A program made the translations under genes and the position numbers. From assembly GCA_938074045.1 (NCBI GenBank), contig CALJGI010000013.1, forward strand, positions 1 to 64,000: a stretch of DNA of 64,000 nt. Reading direction: 5' to 3'. Below, piece by piece: positions 30,949-39,295 of the stretch. Numbering within the stretch: the first letter of the stretch is position 1; every line of letters starts with the position of its first letter. The notes below the pieces were generated by a model. That model saw only the letters and a program-made list of their open reading frames with translations. It had not been told where the DNA came from and searched no databases. The DNA is from an uncultured Halieaceae bacterium. GTDB taxonomy: Bacteria > Pseudomonadota > Gammaproteobacteria > Pseudomonadales > Halieaceae.

Positions 30949-33198
30949 CTAGAAGGAAAACTTGGCGCGTATTCCGTAGTATCGCTGAGAATTGCGAGTG
31001 AAAACGTTGGTTATGGCCGTGGCGCTGCCATAGAGTGCTCGCAAGTCTGCTATACCGGATCGGTAATTTTCATCCGTAGCGTTGTTTACAAATAACGTGA
31101 TTCGGTAGCGATCGTTGTCTCTCTCGTTGATCCCAACACTGAAGTCAAGTACCCCGTAGCTGTCCTCTCCCGTCAGCGGGTTCTGGGTGAGATCGAAACC
31201 AACCTCATCTTGCCAAACCCAGGATGCTGTCAAGAAAGCATAGAATGGCATGCTTTCCATAGACACCTGATAATCGGCCAGAATGCTATATTTCCATTCC
31301 GGGGAATTGGGCAGATCACCACCGGAAATATCCTGTACACCGCCAACGCAACCCTGCTCCAGCGTTTGCCCTGCGAAGCAATTTGCCCCGTCGAACTTCT
31401 TGATGGTGGCATCAATATAGGCCGCGCCAAACGTCAGGCTGAGATTATCGCCAATCAGTGCAGCTCCCTCCAGTTCAATACCCTGAGTCTCCAAAGAGCC
31501 TACATTGTTGATACTTACCAACAGACTTCCGTCGGGCAATAACAGTGTGCTCTGGGCTTGATAGTCCTGGTACTCTGTGTAAAAGGCGGTAGCATTCAGC
31601 TGCACACGGTTATCCATAAACGTGCTCTTTATCCCTATCTCGTATGCATCAGAGGTTTCTGGTGCTACTGGATTGTCTGCCTTCAACTGAGTAAAGCCGC
31701 TGGTCATATCGTAGGCCTGCCCCTTGTAGCCCTTGGCGTAACGCGCATAAAGCATGGTGTCATCAGCCAAAAAATGCTGTAGTGAAATATTGCCTAATAC
31801 CTCGGTGTCACTGTCATTGGCGGCCACCTGGCTGGGCGGTGCCAGGCCGCCGTCGGAGTAATCAACTGTGATCTCCTCATCGTTCCAGCGTAAGCCAGCA
31901 GTAACGCTTGTTGTATCGCTGAACCGCCAGGTCGCCTGACCAAAAAGTGCTATGCTCTCGGTAGCCACTGTACCTGCCCAGTCAGAGTTGATAATGGGTG
32001 CACGGAAGAAGCTTCTATCGGTTTCGGCGTCGGCGTAATAAAATCCCACAACATAATCGTAGTTGTCGTAAGAAGGCGAGCTCAACCGGAACTCCTGTGA
32101 CACAAAATCGGTCTCGGTAACCGATTCAGAGGCGATACCCCCGGAGGAAGCACCTCCTGTCACGGCTGCCAGAACATCTGCATTTGAAAAATCGACATCG
32201 CCGTCATTGAAGTACTCCCATTTATCCACGGCGGTGATCGAGGTTAACGTGAAATCTCCCAAGCCGACATTGAGTCGCAGGTTTACGCCACTATTATCAG
32301 TCCCGTCCACAGGGCCATCCTCTGAGCGAAAGTCCAGGTTTTCATCGGAGGGAGTAATGCCAGGGGCCACTTCATCCGGGACAAAGCCGAAAACCTTGGC
32401 TGCAGGATCCAGCTCATTCCAGGTAAGTGCACAGCAAGTGGATTTATCTTCTGAGTAATAGGCTGACAAGGTAGCATCCATGGTATCAGAGACATCCCAT
32501 CTCAGCTTGGCCCGCACCCCCTGACTTTCTTCACCGTTGACATCCTCGCCGGTGCTCAGATTATTAACGAACCCATCCCTGTCACTCCAGTTACCGGTGA
32601 TTCTGTATCCCAGAGAATCACTTATTGGCCCTGAAATAGAGCCTAAAAAGCGCTGCTCGTTATCATCCGTAAATGCTACTTCAACGGAACCCTCAAATTC
32701 CTCTGCCGGGCCCTTGGTAACAATACTGAGAACGCCCGCTGAAGCACTCTTCCCAAACAAAGTACTTTGGGGGCCGCGCAACACTTCAATACGTTCGATA
32801 TCGACCAGATTGCCAATGGATTGACCAGCCTGCACGGTCGATACATCGTCGATTATGACTGCGACACTCTGCTCAACACCAACGCTGAATACATTGGTGC
32901 CGATACCGCGAAGACGAAAACCGCTGTTCTGTTTATTATCACTGACTCCTACTGTCAGGGAAGGTGCCAATTTCACCAGATCCTGGGTCTGGGTAATCCC
33001 CATTTGATCGATCATACCTGAGGAGATCGCCGTCAATGCTACGGGGACATCCTGCGCACTTTGGGAACGCTTCTGTGCCGTGACAATGACCTCCTCCAAT
33101 TCGCGACTTTGAGCTAGCGCTGCGGAAGATAGAAAGGTTGTCGCCAGGGCCAGGGTTACAGCCGACGTAAGAGTGGATCGTGTGGCAATGGGAGTCAT
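30949..33198 (-). CDS. TonB-dependent outer-membrane receptor
   Basis: 749-residue TonB-dependent transporter. A signal peptide (about residues 1-29, ending AALA) is followed by the TonB box LEEVIVTAQKR, a plug domain (RGIGTN, VLRGPQSTLFGKSASAGVLSI) and a 22-strand barrel ending in a terminal Phe (RAKFSF). This subgroup, common in sphingomonads and OM60-type gammaproteobacteria, imports varied organic compounds; the ligand is not evident. The ATG at 33198 has GGAG six bases upstream, better than 33210. It is downstream of the BtuB-like receptor with a 269-base gap. Confidence 0.9.
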   Translation of the reverse strand: MTPIATRSTLTSAVTLALATTFLSSAALAQSRELEEVIVTAQKRSQSAQDVPVALTAISSGMIDQMGITQTQDLVKLAPSLTVGVSDNKQNSGFRLRGIGTNVFSVGVEQSVAVIIDDVSTVQAGQSIGNLVDIERIEVLRGPQSTLFGKSASAGVLSIVTKGPAEEFEGSVEVAFTDDNEQRFLGSISGPISDSLGYRITGNWSDRDGFVNNLSTGEDVNGEESQGVRAKLRWDVSDTMDATLSAYYSEDKSTCCALTWNELDPAAKVFGFVPDEVAPGITPSDENLDFRSEDGPVDGTDNSGVNLRLNVGLGDFTLTSITAVDKWEYFNDGDVDFSNADVLAAVTGGASSGGIASESVTETDFVSQEFRLSSPSYDNYDYVVGFYYADAETDRSFFRAPIINSDWAGTVATESIALFGQATWRFSDTTSVTAGLRWNDEEITVDYSDGGLAPPSQVAANDSDTEVLGNISLQHFLADDTMLYARYAKGYKGQAYDMTSGFTQLKADNPVAPETSDAYEIGIKSTFMDNRVQLNATAFYTEYQDYQAQSTLLLPDGSLLVSINNVGSLETQGIELEGAALIGDNLSLTFGAAYIDATIKKFDGANCFAGQTLEQGCVGGVQDISGGDLPNSPEWKYSILADYQVSMESMPFYAFLTASWVWQDEVGFDLTQNPLTGEDSYGVLDFSVGINERDNDRYRITLFVNNATDENYRSGIADLRALYGSATAITNVFTRNSQRYYGIRAKFSF

Positions 33199-33467
33199 AA
33201 TTATCTCCATGTGATCGACGCGTTTGCGAAACTGGGAGGTGCATCTATTTTTAGGATTATCATATCTGTGTCATATACGTTAACTCGCAACAACACTGGT
33301 GTGATTCGATTGTGCTGAGTCTTTGTAGATACTAACAATGATAGCGCCTCACCAGAAACTACGTCAGGAGCTGGTTTAGGCATATTGGTATAGAATGTTA
33401 GTATCGAAGATGAAAGGACCGGTTCCGCAGCTGGTAGAGGCGGGAAAATTGGAAGTTGTGGGATCGT

Positions 33468-35378
33468 CTAGAATGAAGCTGTCAGCCCCAGCCTAATAAC
33501 TCTGCCGGGCGCTGGAAAGCCCACTGCGGTCTCGTAGGAAGAATCAAAAACGTTATCAAGGGACAAATGCCATTCAAGCTTTTCAGACATAGACCAACTG
33601 GCACTGAAATCGGTTCTGGTGAATGAATCAAGCCGACGAATGAGCTCTGATCCCGTATGCCGACTGACCGCCCATTGCTTACCCGAGTACTGAATATCGA
33701 CGCTTGCCAACAAACTTGAAAGAACCTGCCAACTTACAGAAAGCCCCCCTTTTCGTTCTGGGCGGCCAGTTAACACCGTATTCTGGCCCCTCAGATTGAA
33801 ATCTGTGCGCGTCAGGTGGCCAGACACCTCCAGATTTAAAGCCGGGCGCCATAGCATGCCCAGTGAATAGCCCCGTGTCTCAATGCGACTGCGATTGACG
33901 TTACGGAAAGTACTTTCGTCAAAATCGACAAGATTCTGATAGTCGTTACTGAATATCGAGGAATTCAGCTGCCAATCAGGATGCGGCGACCAATTGACGG
34001 AAATATCCAGACTTTCAACGGTTTCAGGCTGCAGATCTGGATTACCCACCAGCGTGTGACCCAGTGCAAAAAAACTGGGTAGTTTAAAAGCTTCTCCCCA
34101 ATTTATAGCCAGGCTCGTATCGGGAGAAAACTCGTAGCGAAGGCCGATGCCGCTTGAAAGCTCATCCCCAAATCCCTCAGGGTCATCCTGTCTTACCGTG
34201 GCTTGCAAGGACAACTCATCCAGTGGCATGGAGTGTAGCGCCGCAAAATAGCCCATGCTCTGGCGCTTCAACTGGAAATCGGTCGAAAATCTGGTGCCAA
34301 AATAATCTAGAAATCCGACGCTTTTACCGTCATCAAGTTTGTAGTCGACACCCAGTACGACATTCGCGCCTGTCGAAAAGCGAAAAGTGTTAGCCCATTG
34401 CGCAATAGACCTGGTGAAGTCGGTATCAGATGCATTGGGTGGTACTTCCAGAAACGGAGAAATACCCGGGGAATCTGTGTTTTCCGTTCGGTCGACTCGA
34501 CTTAGTTTCACACTGGAGGACCATTTATCTCCCATTTTGGTCCGCCAGAAAGCAGACAAAGACTGCTCCTCATAATCGCTATCATCTAACTCTCTGCTGG
34601 TTGCATAGGCAACGCCACCGCTCTGTTCGGGAAAACTTTTACGCGATCCATCAACCACGCCAGCCTGGATATCAACGCTGTGATCGTCACCAATCCAGCC
34701 GAAATGGAACCTCGCGGAACGGTTATCTCTGGAGCTGAAACGAGAGCCAACCCCGGAATCCTGCGCGCCGACAACCATGCTGTAATTGAAATCCTGGGAT
34801 ACTCCACCCAGTCGGGCCGTAATGTTGGAGTAGGAAGATGAGCCACCCTCGATAAAAACCTGTTGTTGCAAATCCTGGTTCGAATTACGAGTAAAAACTT
34901 GTATCACCCCCGCCAAGGCGTCAGAGCCGTATATGGCAGACTGTGCACCGTACACAAGTTCGATTCGTTCTATTTGAGACGCCTGAATATTGCCGAAATC
35001 AAAACCGCCGCCGCGGGTATTGGTCGGGTCATTAACAGGTACGCCATCAATAAGAACCAGGGTGAAATTCGACTCAGCTCCGCGAATGGAGACGGCCGTG
35101 AGCCCTCCAGGGCCACCCTGCTCTTCTACCAGCACACCAGGAAGCGTTTTCAGCAGGTCCGCCACGCTACTCTTATGCAGTGCTGCAATCTGGTTAGAAT
35201 CCAGTATCGATACTACAGCGGTGGTCTCTCTGCTTGCGTCGTAACTACCAGTCACGATAATAGATTCTGGCTGGCTGCCGTATTGCGCATGGGCCATAAA
35301 ACCTACACTGAACAGAAGTAGTCCGATATAGAATTGGCTAAGAGGCATAGAGACCAGTAGACCTGGGCGCTGGCACAT
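33468..35378 (-). CDS. TonB-dependent receptor, BtuB/CirA-like
   Basis: 636-residue TonB-dependent receptor. Signal peptide ending AHAQ at about residue 31, TonB box ESIIVTGSY, plug with LPGVLVEEQGG, SIRGAESNFTLVLIDGVPVND and YGAQSAIYGSDALAGVIQV, then a barrel ending in Phe (GLTASF). The compact size resembles BtuB, but no cobalamin genes or B12 riboswitch are near. Its ATG overlaps by one base the stop of the upstream fusion dehydrogenase (TAATG), so the two are translationally coupled. That points to a substrate shared with the dehydrogenase rather than B12. Confidence 0.88.
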   Translation of the reverse strand: MCQRPGLLVSMPLSQFYIGLLLFSVGFMAHAQYGSQPESIIVTGSYDASRETTAVVSILDSNQIAALHKSSVADLLKTLPGVLVEEQGGPGGLTAVSIRGAESNFTLVLIDGVPVNDPTNTRGGGFDFGNIQASQIERIELVYGAQSAIYGSDALAGVIQVFTRNSNQDLQQQVFIEGGSSSYSNITARLGGVSQDFNYSMVVGAQDSGVGSRFSSRDNRSARFHFGWIGDDHSVDIQAGVVDGSRKSFPEQSGGVAYATSRELDDSDYEEQSLSAFWRTKMGDKWSSSVKLSRVDRTENTDSPGISPFLEVPPNASDTDFTRSIAQWANTFRFSTGANVVLGVDYKLDDGKSVGFLDYFGTRFSTDFQLKRQSMGYFAALHSMPLDELSLQATVRQDDPEGFGDELSSGIGLRYEFSPDTSLAINWGEAFKLPSFFALGHTLVGNPDLQPETVESLDISVNWSPHPDWQLNSSIFSNDYQNLVDFDESTFRNVNRSRIETRGYSLGMLWRPALNLEVSGHLTRTDFNLRGQNTVLTGRPERKGGLSVSWQVLSSLLASVDIQYSGKQWAVSRHTGSELIRRLDSFTRTDFSASWSMSEKLEWHLSLDNVFDSSYETAVGFPAPGRVIRLGLTASF

Positions 35379-38300
35379 TAATCCACTACACGCTCTGCTG
35401 GTATTTTTTGTCCTTCCCGGTGCAGAATCAGGCTATTTACAGTGCCGTCTTCATCAATGACAAACTCGAACTTGGCGCTCTCACTTCCCATTTTGGCGAA
35501 AAAGATGCTGTCAGTACCCGCGACTGGGTCCAGCTTGCCACCCCCGTACATGGGTACATCAATATGCAGCCCATCAACTTCCTCAGTGACGGTGAGCTTC
35601 AGGAAACTCACAGAATATTTGCCAATAAAACGATCGAAGCCACGATCAATTTTTACACCTTCCAGTTCCTTGACGGTCCATGGCGTCTTTCTGCCCGCCG
35701 TCTCGCGTCGTATGCTTGCAACCTTGTCTGTATCAACCGGGTCAGCCGTATTTCCCCAGCTGCGGCGCACATAAGTCATCAAACCAGCCAGCGTTGTATC
35801 GCTGAGAGCAGGTAGATGGCCATGTGCTGGCATGATGCCGTTAAACACCTCGCCATTGACCTCCACGGGACCAGCCATTCCCTGCAATATGATACGACCC
35901 AACCATTCCGCGGGACCTGTAACCCAGGACACACCAGCAAGCGCAGGAGCCAGACCCGGTCGACCTGCACCATCATCGCCATGGCAGGCGGCGCACTGAC
36001 TGTAAAACGCCTCTCCTAATTTCATGCGCTCCAGTTGCTCAGGACTGAGTGGTTTGATGCCAAGCGCCAGTTCATCTCCCGGCCATGTATATGCTGCTCT
36101 GGCTTGCAGCCGGGTGTTCCACAGTGAATTAGTTTCACTGATGGTGGCGTCTCGGAAAATGGGCGGCGCTTCTGCCAACATGGCAGGCTGAAAGTCCTTC
36201 GCATTTATGACTGAGGTGAAACCATTCAGCAGTGCAATCTGCTGCCAGTCATTTTTACCAACCCGGGACGCCGTAAACTGCAGCAGGCCCAGCAGTGCTT
36301 CGGGAGCCGCATTAGTTGCCGTCAAATCACCGCGGAGCGTACGGTAGGCATTGGCAGACAAGCGCTGTAACAAGCTACTCATGCTATCAGATCGCGCGGC
36401 AGCAGCGGGGGCATCGACCAGTATCTCAAGAAATTCCAACTCTTGTCCGGCGACGGCACGACTGACCGCCTGCTGAATATATTCACTCGACGCTCTGTCG
36501 TTCAGTAAATGCAGCAATCGTTGCTGGATGGCGGGAGATTTCGCATGGTCGACAGCGGCAAACGCCAACTGCATTGCAACGCGCTCGTCGAGTAACTTCG
36601 GATCACTCAAGATTGCAACAAGGTCCTCCGACCGCAGCAAAGACTGTCCAGCGCGGAGCGCCTGAACCTGCCGGTTAGGATCTTCCATGCTGAGCAGTTC
36701 CAGTAACATATTCCGGGTAAGCTCTCCCCTCCCCTCCAGTGTCCAGATGGCATGCAGTGCCGGTATGGTGGGCTTGGCTCTGGCGATATCAAACAGCGAT
36801 TCTTGCAAATCTTCAGCGCGTGACAGAAGTAATCGCTGAGCGGTATCCCTGGTCCAACCATTGCTGTGGCTGAGTGCTGCCAATAATCTCTGGGGGCCAG
36901 CATCGCCCAGGGATTGGTCCGAACCAGTGTCACTGCCCTCCGAATGTCGCACCCGCCAGATCCGACCCATACCAAGGGGTTGTTCTAACTGTCGTTCAAA
37001 AATCTGCTCACGCAATTCATCAGTAAGATAGTGGTCTTCCTGCACTATGCCGCGATACATATCAATTATGTAAAGGGAGCCATCCGGCCCATTCATCGCA
37101 TCAACAGGTCGAAATCGCTCATCTGTTGATCCAAGAAAATCTCTCTGACCCCACTCAGCGTCCTCGTAGAGCTGCTGCGTGGCCGTAATTTCCAGCCCCT
37201 TATCCTGTACATAAAATTGAGCAACCACGTTGCCTGCCACCTCTGGCACATATACATGGCCCACGGGTGATGCCGGAAATTGATCTCCCCGGTAGTACAC
37301 AAGCCCACTTACTCCAGTGGCTTTGTTGAGACGACCGTCAGGACGTAACGTCCCTTCAAGATACGCCCTGTTAACGCCGGGATTCACCCGCACGGTGAAG
37401 ACCCGCGCAGGGTTAGTGAGGTTGACCCCCAGTCCCTGAGTGGATGACAGCGTGCGCCCGGACACCAGGTCCTCTGCCTGGAAAAAATCGGCCTGTAGCC
37501 AGGTAGAGTTGTGATTGTAGAACCAGCGACCGTAATTGTCCTTTGTTATGCCCCATTGACCGCGGAACAGCCCTTCCCTTTCTTCGAGCGCTCCATCAGC
37601 CAGCCGCAGACTTCGGGTCGACTTGCTGTTATACAGCCAGTTGTCCAGTCCCTGCCGCAAACCATTTTCCATGTGCTCCACATTGGCATTTCCAACATCG
37701 GTGGCATACCCGCCGACGGATTTTTTGGATGTACACAAGGCATCTCTGGTAGGTAGCTCACAGAGCCAGAGCGTAGGCGGCTCAGCAATCAGAATGCCTT
37801 CATTCACGACAGCAATGGCGCGCGGATTAACCAGCCCATCGAGAAACACCTCACTCTTGTCCATGCGCCCATCGCGGTCTGTATCTTCCAGTCGCACAAT
37901 GCGTCCAACGGGCTCTTCACTGCCGGTGCCGTAGGCATCGGGCATATATCCGCGCAATTCAACCACATATAGACGACCCCACTCATCCCAGGCCATGGCG
38001 ACCGGATCCTCAACGAGTGGCTCAGCGGCAACTAATTCAATTTCATAACCCGGCGCGATACGGAAGCGGCTCAAGGCTTCTTCAGGCGTCAAGACGGGGG
38101 CTGGCTCATTGTCCAGGGTCTGGTAAAAGGCCGGCTCTGAGCTGGCTTCCTTTAACGCAGCCCAACTTAGCTGTGTTATCTCGTAATCCTCATCACAGCG
38201 TCCCGGCTTGATGTGCAACTGCCCGCTTAATGCCAGATCTGCATGCATTCCACGGATGGCATCGACTTCATTAACACTCACAACCGCTTCGTTATCCCGA

Positions 38301-39295
38301 AGTACTGCTTTCACTATGAGCTGATCCGAAGGCGATAAATCAACGGAGGTCATCTCGCCTACGCCATCATTGTTGACGAATTGTGACTCTACTCGGTCCT
38401 GAAAAAGCCTGACCTCCACGAAAGAATGATTACCACTACCCTCTCCCGCCGGTTTGCGTAGCAATAAAGTCGCGGGCTCCGCGCAGGCGGGTAACTCCAG
38501 TGCAATTGCAGCATTACCAAGCTCTCGTTTGCTGCGATACCAGGCCGGTTCGACGTCACTGGCGACCAGCAAGCCGGTTTCGGTGAAAGGCATATCCCGG
38601 TCAAGCCACTGCTCGGCCGCAAGCATGCTTTTACTTTCACCAAGTCCAGGTAGCTCCATAATCCGAATATTGCGCCACCGCATGATACCTATATCGCCGG
38701 CGTGAACCTGCAGTGCGATAAATCCACTGGCATCTACCGCATCGATGAGGTCAGCGGCGGGAACACCATTTATCCAGGTCTTCAGAATGGGACCGCGGGC
38801 CTCAATTTCCACGTCATTCCAATCGTCCAGTTTGATAGCTGCCCGCGCAGCATCATTCTCGTTCAGCCTGGCCAGCCAGCCTCGTCGAGCTTCGTCGTAT
38901 ATGCCACCACTCCAGGCGCGGTCCGAGTGATCGAGCTCATATTGGTAGCCATAGGCACGTCCGTCGCCATCACGCTGAGCAGAGCGAAACAGCACGCCTG
39001 AATTGCCGAGTTCGTCCCAGCGCATCTGCATCTTTAGTGAAAAATTGGCAAACTCTGCCTCGGTGCGCAGAAACGTATTACCACCAGGACCGTGATGGCC
39101 GACTATTTCATCACCTCTGGCTGCGAAGGTTGATTCTCCACCTATGACCCGCCAACCGTCGAGATTCTTGCCGTTATACAGCGCCCGATAGCCCTCCTCC
39201 AGTTCCGGTGTTTCTGTGTCGCCGGTGAAGCTGATGTACCAAGCACCCAGAACCGCGGCTACGACGACCAGTAGTCCGAGAATACGTCTATTCAA
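35378..39295 (-). CDS. Fusion protein: DUF1080 domain, PVC-type membrane-bound dehydrogenase, helical repeats, cytochrome c
   Basis: About 1305 residues. Numbering from the upstream TTG at 39364: membrane segment 28-44; DUF1080 (concanavalin-like, 3-keto-glycoside hydrolase group) about 57-238 (LYNGKNLDGWR, NSGVLFRS); a second beta domain 240-405; PVC-type sugar-dehydrogenase-like propeller about 430-810; HEAT-like helices about 825-1060; cytochrome c 1113-1200 with CAACH (C1124, C1127, H1128) and axial Met in GIMPAHG; a C-terminal beta domain 1240-1328. No ATG exists near the start; TTG at 39295 gives NRRILGLLVV directly as anchor with AGGA ten bases upstream. Likely a periplasmic oxidase of a sugar-like substrate passing electrons to heme. 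Coupled to the next receptor by TAATG. Confidence 0.8.
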   Translation of the reverse strand: MNRRILGLLVVVAAVLGAWYISFTGDTETPELEEGYRALYNGKNLDGWRVIGGESTFAARGDEIVGHHGPGGNTFLRTEAEFANFSLKMQMRWDELGNSGVLFRSAQRDGDGRAYGYQYELDHSDRAWSGGIYDEARRGWLARLNENDAARAAIKLDDWNDVEIEARGPILKTWINGVPAADLIDAVDASGFIALQVHAGDIGIMRWRNIRIMELPGLGESKSMLAAEQWLDRDMPFTETGLLVASDVEPAWYRSKRELGNAAIALELPACAEPATLLLRKPAGEGSGNHSFVEVRLFQDRVESQFVNNDGVGEMTSVDLSPSDQLIVKAVLRDNEAVVSVNEVDAIRGMHADLALSGQLHIKPGRCDEDYEITQLSWAALKEASSEPAFYQTLDNEPAPVLTPEEALSRFRIAPGYEIELVAAEPLVEDPVAMAWDEWGRLYVVELRGYMPDAYGTGSEEPVGRIVRLEDTDRDGRMDKSEVFLDGLVNPRAIAVVNEGILIAEPPTLWLCELPTRDALCTSKKSVGGYATDVGNANVEHMENGLRQGLDNWLYNSKSTRSLRLADGALEEREGLFRGQWGITKDNYGRWFYNHNSTWLQADFFQAEDLVSGRTLSSTQGLGVNLTNPARVFTVRVNPGVNRAYLEGTLRPDGRLNKATGVSGLVYYRGDQFPASPVGHVYVPEVAGNVVAQFYVQDKGLEITATQQLYEDAEWGQRDFLGSTDERFRPVDAMNGPDGSLYIIDMYRGIVQEDHYLTDELREQIFERQLEQPLGMGRIWRVRHSEGSDTGSDQSLGDAGPQRLLAALSHSNGWTRDTAQRLLLSRAEDLQESLFDIARAKPTIPALHAIWTLEGRGELTRNMLLELLSMEDPNRQVQALRAGQSLLRSEDLVAILSDPKLLDERVAMQLAFAAVDHAKSPAIQQRLLHLLNDRASSEYIQQAVSRAVAGQELEFLEILVDAPAAAARSDSMSSLLQRLSANAYRTLRGDLTATNAAPEALLGLLQFTASRVGKNDWQQIALLNGFTSVINAKDFQPAMLAEAPPIFRDATISETNSLWNTRLQARAAYTWPGDELALGIKPLSPEQLERMKLGEAFYSQCAACHGDDGAGRPGLAPALAGVSWVTGPAEWLGRIILQGMAGPVEVNGEVFNGIMPAHGHLPALSDTTLAGLMTYVRRSWGNTADPVDTDKVASIRRETAGRKTPWTVKELEGVKIDRGFDRFIGKYSVSFLKLTVTEEVDGLHIDVPMYGGGKLDPVAGTDSIFFAKMGSESAKFEFVIDEDGTVNSLILHREGQKIPAERVVD

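Follow-up and report, generated by a model that had tools for sequence, protein, structure and literature searches.

Architecture of the fusion gene

The minus strand of the window, i.e., the 64,000 nucleotides analysed here from an uncultured Halieaceae bacterium (contig CALJGI010000013.1 of assembly GCA_938074045.1), carries at 35378..39295 a single open reading frame (ORF) of 1305 amino acids, with no internal stops. As an earlier sequence-only reading had proposed, this gene joins a DUF1080 domain, a PVC-type dehydrogenase, helical repeats and a cytochrome c in one chain, which is now supported by the ORF, by matches to Pfam and to the NCBIfam model TIGR02604, and by full-length orthologs. 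The domains listed in that reading were recovered, but its count of five segments was too low, given that residues 213-388 form an additional all-beta domain, which it had missed. Seven segments are thus found from the N- to the C-terminus: a signal anchor, the DUF1080 domain, a second jelly roll, a beta-propeller, HEAT-like repeats, the cytochrome c and a putative DUF3471-like domain.

The signal anchor (residues 1-23, 39227..39295, minus strand, like all the features below) is identified from the sequence and from the N-termini of the orthologs, which have the hydrophobic stretch in common, in agreement with the membrane anchor proposed earlier. Most of these orthologs start with MKK immediately before this stretch, which agrees with the TTG start at 39295. 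The anchor has no lipobox Cys, whereas a lipobox takes its place in several of the relatives that are short forms, i.e., those without the DUF1080 module (L033, L037, L081 and L082).

A domain search found both of the principal modules. The DUF1080 domain (PF06439; residues 35-212, 38660..39193) matches the Pfam model 3keto-disac_hyd with an E value of 1e-37 and 130.2 bits, against a gathering cut-off of 26.8, while the propeller (residues 404-785, 36941..38086) matches DUF7133 with an E value of 3e-99. The protein also scores 163.6 against TIGR02604, the family of PVC-type heme-binding CxxCH proteins (cut-off 122.2). The propeller is followed by a region of HEAT-like repeats (residues about 800-1080, 36056..36898), which is all-helical in the predicted model and whose profile matches the alphaRep HEAT-like proteins.

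The monoheme cytochrome c domain (residues 1090-1200, 35696..36028) is recognised by Pfam (Cytochrome_CBB3, residues 1095-1176, E 1e-6) and by its profile match to the cytochrome of heme-Cu nitrite reductase (E 1e-21). The CAACH motif (residues 1101-1105, 35981-35995) and the axial Met1155 (35831-35833), both noted in the sequence-only reading, bear the ligands C1101, C1104, H1105 and M1155, which are invariant in the orthologs covering these positions, and M1155 aligns with the MP motif of the nitrite reductase cytochrome domain. The final 90 residues, which had been left unassigned, are predicted by the model to form beta strands, and the segment between residues 1220 and 1292 (35420..35638) resembles DUF3471 at an E value of 9e-4, under the cut-off of that family, so that they are now assigned, tentatively, to a weakly DUF3471-like beta domain.

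The DUF1080 domain and the second jelly roll

The DUF1080 domain belongs to the BT3469 N-domain subfamily (GYQYELDHSDRAWSGGIYDEARRGWL), as indicated by its match to the Protein Data Bank (PDB) entry 4jqt (E 2e-42), and its fold, compared using VIA, is nearest to that of 4jqt (Z 25.5), with a Z of 20.7 (2.9 A, 175 residues) to 9fbe. The 3-keto-glycoside eliminases and hydratases (9fbe, 8rr2, 8tda, 8v31, and BT2157, 3osd) share both this Pfam family and this fold, and the CBM66 module 4azz is also among the nearest folds (Z 19.6). Among the long forms, which retain the DUF1080 module, the mean identity of the domain is 69.5%, and 65 of its 183 positions, with most of the polar stretch ELDHSDRAWSGGIYDEARRGW among them, are invariant, while the GYQYELDHSDRAWSGGIYDEARR stretch of the N-terminal module holds conserved Asp, Glu and Arg residues.

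The second jelly roll (residues 213-388, 38132..38659) is defined by the structure model of residues 20-800, in which it is all-beta, and by hhalign comparisons. A Pfam scan of residues 226-385 matched no family. The VIA alignment of the N-terminal model to the two-domain 4jqt spans residues 14-363 of the model, with a root-mean-square deviation of 8.9, and hhalign pairs the second jelly roll with the first domain over 166 of 180 columns at an E value of 0.001 and a probability of 21%, the best pairing with whole double-DUF1080 proteins being weak (E 0.06). Identity in this region is only 28% among the orthologs. The second jelly roll is probably a degenerate second DUF1080-like domain, in which case the N-terminal part of the fusion would parallel the layout of the BT3469-type two-domain proteins, with which it shares the Pfam family and the fold. 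Unlike those proteins, the fusion would have a decayed second domain, and the pair is joined to a propeller-cytochrome.

The propeller-cytochrome

The predicted model of residues 390-1305 has a mean predicted local distance difference test (pLDDT) score of 83, while that of residues 20-800 has a score of 68, the first 360 residues being good and much of the propeller poor. In VIA, the propeller is closest to the pyrroloquinoline quinone (PQQ) sugar dehydrogenase 3a9g (Z 24.0, 3.0 A, 271 residues) and to the AA12 enzyme 6i1q (Z 23.9), while the top Foldseek match is virginiamycin B lyase. The fold is thus common to the PQQ soluble sugar dehydrogenases and the AA12 pyranose dehydrogenase (3a9g, 2g8s, 6i1q and 6jt5, Z 23-24), although a predicted fold similar to that of a sugar dehydrogenase demonstrates no function by itself.

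Mean identity of the propeller reaches 72% among the long forms, and some active-site landmarks can be aligned. H541 pairs with the His in IHNGGR, a motif of 3a9g, by way of a sugar-dehydrogenase-like protein of the genome that carries the fusion, and R727-F-R729 aligns with the R-I-R of the Escherichia coli aldose sugar dehydrogenase Asd (E 8e-5), both alignments being weak. A sugar-dehydrogenase-like propeller lies at L104:5626-6816 (G000:C31), in a genome that has no PqqE above the cut-off. As in the PVC-type CxxCH proteins (TIGR02604, DUF7133), such as Lac161_ORF7, a single chain carries the propeller, the HEAT-like helices and, towards its C-terminus, the cytochrome c. To these parts the fusion adds the N-terminal DUF1080 and jelly roll domains and the C-terminal beta domain.

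Distribution and history of the fusion

Orthologs matching at an E value of 1e-60 or better were found in 34 of 140 genomes of the family, in 11 of its 28 genera, some of them full length and others short forms. The fusion thus recurs across the family (the named relatives that carry it are Halioglobus and Haliea), and is not peculiar to this genome. Full-length orthologs, with 51-62% identity, occur in the same family and also in two others of the order, where the full-length form is present in G564 and that of G575 is split in two pieces at contig ends. A sample of 398 genomes of the phylum contained just two others with a match at 1e-40, and the best plasmid relatives (Gemmatirosa, Ketogulonicigenium and Catenovulum) all cover less than 80% of the query. 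The scan of genome contigs for relatives, in which no Planctomycete, Verrucomicrobial or Bacteroidetes genome set was compared, returned gammaproteobacteria only.

In the tree of the part from the propeller to the C-terminus, in which four rows lie on long branches, the long and short forms require four changes, and the starred branches force three for the long form, which points to repeated gains or losses of the DUF1080 module. In the short clade of L034, L075, L076 and L077, the last strand of the second jelly roll is still clearly visible in three members, for example YRIDDFEWFWLKE, compared with YEITQLSWAALKE in the query. This residual strand is read as the scar of an in-frame deletion, which would make loss the direction of change in that clade.

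The unfused arrangement is found in L099, L100 and L122, where a separate DUF1080 gene, with the motif GYQ.E.D.SDR.WSGG seen in the fusion, lies directly before the propeller-cytochrome gene. Just upstream of this pair in G343, a protein of 1142 amino acids (L100:4313-7741) has repeat-like helices and a CxxCH motif. In the genome of the fusion itself, another protein (L001, G000:C29:4703-5344, frame of 1066 amino acids) ends in a DUF1080 domain, with a different N-terminal half and no evident cytochrome.

Partner genes and the exchange of partners

In many loci, the propeller gene adjoins a core operon formed by a GFO/IDH/MocA oxidoreductase (MocA-A), an Nramp-like transporter and a second GFO/IDH/MocA oxidoreductase (MocA-B). 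The glucuronate isomerase gene UxaC is often nearby, and UxuB, GntR, sulfatase and DUF3604 genes are present in some loci. These three core genes follow the unfused pair in L099, and L119, from another family of the order, has the operon as well. The Nramp-like gene was found in 22 of the 140 genomes, of which 21 are propeller carriers. This co-occurrence (21 of 34 carriers, 1 of 106 others; Fisher p 4e-15) and that of UxaC (21 of 34 and 9 of 106, respectively; p 1e-9) are both uncorrected for kinship.

In the genome with the Nramp-like gene but no propeller (G029), the core operon is accompanied by genes for a double-DUF1080 protein and for a MocA oxidoreductase bearing a twin-arginine translocation (Tat) signal, and this combination is found in L038, L123 and L124. 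In L124, the Tat-signal MocA has its best PDB matches to the dehydrogenases 8tdf and 8tdh (E 1e-29), and the double-DUF1080 protein to 4jqt, followed, by its second domain, by 8v31, 8rr2 and 3osd. One slot of the operon is thus filled alternately by a Tat-signal MocA oxidoreductase or by a propeller-cytochrome, and it is this alternation within the same core operon that leads us to propose that the propeller-cytochrome stands in as the glycoside 3-dehydrogenase.

The cleaving partner may also be exchanged. The short forms L032, L079 and L080 (L032:7165, L079:7408 and L080:11498) adjoin a TIM-barrel gene whose product shows the Tat-like motif RRQFL near its N-terminus. The L079 copy belongs to PF01261 and has its best PDB matches to 8tct, 8tcd and 8tcs, and we read this neighbour as a substitute cleaving partner. 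The partners that replace one another in these loci match the oxidoreductase, hydratase and TIM-barrel proteins of the 8tc-, 8td- and 8v31 entries, of which the 8tc- and 8td- structures presumably stem from work on how gut bacteria process glycans by a non-hydrolytic route.

The Nramp-like transporter itself (L065:5192-6568 and its orthologs, including L149 on contig C30 of the same genome as the fusion) reads SGPGW where Nramp proteins generally have DPGN, and has no MPH motif. Its cargo may be a sugar or keto-sugar instead of a metal.

Proposed mechanism and alternative explanations

Starting from the computed domains, folds, conservation, partner genes and partner alternation, we infer the catalysis, its C3 regiochemistry, the substrate, the cofactor and the direction of flow. 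On balance, the fusion in this marine bacterium is probably a periplasmic, membrane-anchored enzyme that opens glycosides by oxidation, and not by plain hydrolysis. The propeller would oxidise a ring hydroxyl of the glycoside, most likely that at C3, and the substrate would most likely be a uronic-acid-containing or related oligosaccharide. The electrons would flow through the heme c that the protein itself carries into the respiratory chain, while the 3-keto-glycoside would be handed to the fused DUF1080 domain, which would cleave or rearrange it. The partner MocA oxidoreductases, joined by the uronate pathway UxaC-UxuB-UxuA in genomes that have it, would then reduce and use the freed keto-sugar. 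The suggestion of the sequence-only reading, that one chain could oxidise a sugar, cleave the keto-product and pass electrons to heme, is thus plausible and has been strengthened by the gene context, i.e., the unfused pairs (L099, L100 and L122) and the alternative partners (L038, L123 and L124).

An oxidise-cleave-reduce logic of this kind is common to the proteins of the 8tc-, 8td- and 8v31 entries and to Caulobacter, in which the DUF1080 gene CCNA_01705 is required for the use of lactose and lies beside a periplasmic lactose 3-dehydrogenase (PMC9007349). Caulobacter, however, uses the separate LacABC proteins, and the 8tc-/8td- set uses MocA-type oxidoreductases, whereas the fusion uses a propeller-cytochrome joined to DUF1080.

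A number of observations weigh against this oxidative route. We know of no assay of any member of the subfamily as a dehydrogenase. Unlike the PQQ sugar dehydrogenases and AA12, to which its sequence similarity is very weak, the propeller lacks the conserved PQQ-site Lys of Asd, with E685/N689 in its place, and R727 is replaced by Ala in two relatives. None of the 34 propeller carriers of the family has PqqE above the cut-off, which implies that PQQ is imported or that the cofactor is different, although the lack of PqqE does not by itself exclude membership of the PQQ dehydrogenases, given that E. coli has both Asd and the PQQ receptor PqqU, and import is possible. In the two-domain DUF1080 relatives, it is the second domain that the characterised 3-keto-glycal hydratases match, while the fusion retains its first domain intact (70%) and the second has decayed (28%). 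The repeated gain or loss of the module also means that the propeller-cytochrome has been kept without DUF1080. In the genome studied here, the partner genes are on other contigs (MocA-A/Nramp/MocA-B on C30, and UxuB/UxaC/UxuA on C22), and the locus in the window retains the fusion and two TonB receptors. Finally, Lac161_ORF7, a propeller-HEAT-cytochrome c protein from a Verrucomicrobial cosmid, which in purified form liberated glucose from lactose with a Km of 1.8 mM, was described as a galactosidase, not as an oxidase (PMC5342196).

This last protein bears on the possibility that the propeller itself is a glycoside hydrolase or lyase, the cytochrome being structural or regulatory, given that Lac161_ORF7 has the same parts and was described as a lactose-cleaving beta-galactosidase, and that virginiamycin B lyase is the top Foldseek match. 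We consider this quite improbable, as VIA ranks the PQQ sugar dehydrogenases and AA12 first, the heme ligands are invariant, and the propeller takes the position that a MocA oxidoreductase otherwise has in the operon; the assay of Lac161_ORF7, moreover, read glucose release alone, a result with which a prior oxidation is compatible. Somewhat less unlikely is an arrangement in which the propeller-cytochrome is the dehydrogenase and the DUF1080 domain and second jelly roll are carbohydrate-binding modules that keep the substrate close to the propeller, cleavage being left to other proteins or occurring spontaneously once the 3-keto group has formed. The nearness of the CBM66 fold, the fact that, in two-domain relatives, the hydratases match the other domain, the dispensability of the module and the stand-alone DUF1080 genes near the fusion in L029, L030, L067 and L069 would all suit such modules, but not the invariance of so many positions of the first domain, most of ELDHSDRAWSGGIYDEARRGW among them, nor the related stand-alone gene adjoining the propeller in L099, L100 and L122.

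As for the origin of the gene, the sequence-only reading had inferred its horizontal acquisition, and the domain families are indeed best known from the Planctomycetes, Verrucomicrobia and Bacteroidetes, while presence in 34 of 140 genomes is patchy. A recent transfer from these phyla into this genome is nevertheless highly improbable, and composition, relatives and tree lend it no support: the GC content of the gene is 54.5%, compared with 53.6% in the window, and that of its third codon positions (GC3) also fits the window; the nearest relatives in the gammaproteobacterial searches are bacteria of the same family and order; the TonB neighbour is conserved; the operon is present in L119; and the query groups in the tree with the other members of its family, the kind of placement that the sequence-only reading itself had named as refuting this part of its proposal. 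An older transfer is possible.

If the exchange of partners holds, one family of such propeller-cytochromes gains a testable function, namely the respiratory, hydrolysis-free opening of glycosides, in bacteria that also carry sulfatase and uronate genes in these loci. With less than even confidence, we would extend this to the widespread PVC-type propeller-cytochromes, which may be respiratory glycoside 3-dehydrogenases, one of them fused to its own cleaving domain in this order, with a cofactor that is imported or is not PQQ.

Neighbouring TonB receptors

The fusion gene is followed at 33468..35378 (minus strand) by a BtuB-like TonB-dependent receptor, identified by Pfam and NCBIfam, the stop codon of the former and the ATG of the latter overlapping in TAATG. 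Its cluster is present in 24 of the 34 compared stretches, usually adjoining the propeller gene. A role for this receptor as a PQQ importer was rejected, given that it resembles BtuB over its whole length (23% identity end to end) and PqqU only in part. The second TonB-dependent receptor (30949..33210, minus strand), assigned by domain search and clustering, groups with the receptors near the short-form propeller genes in L032, L079 and L080.

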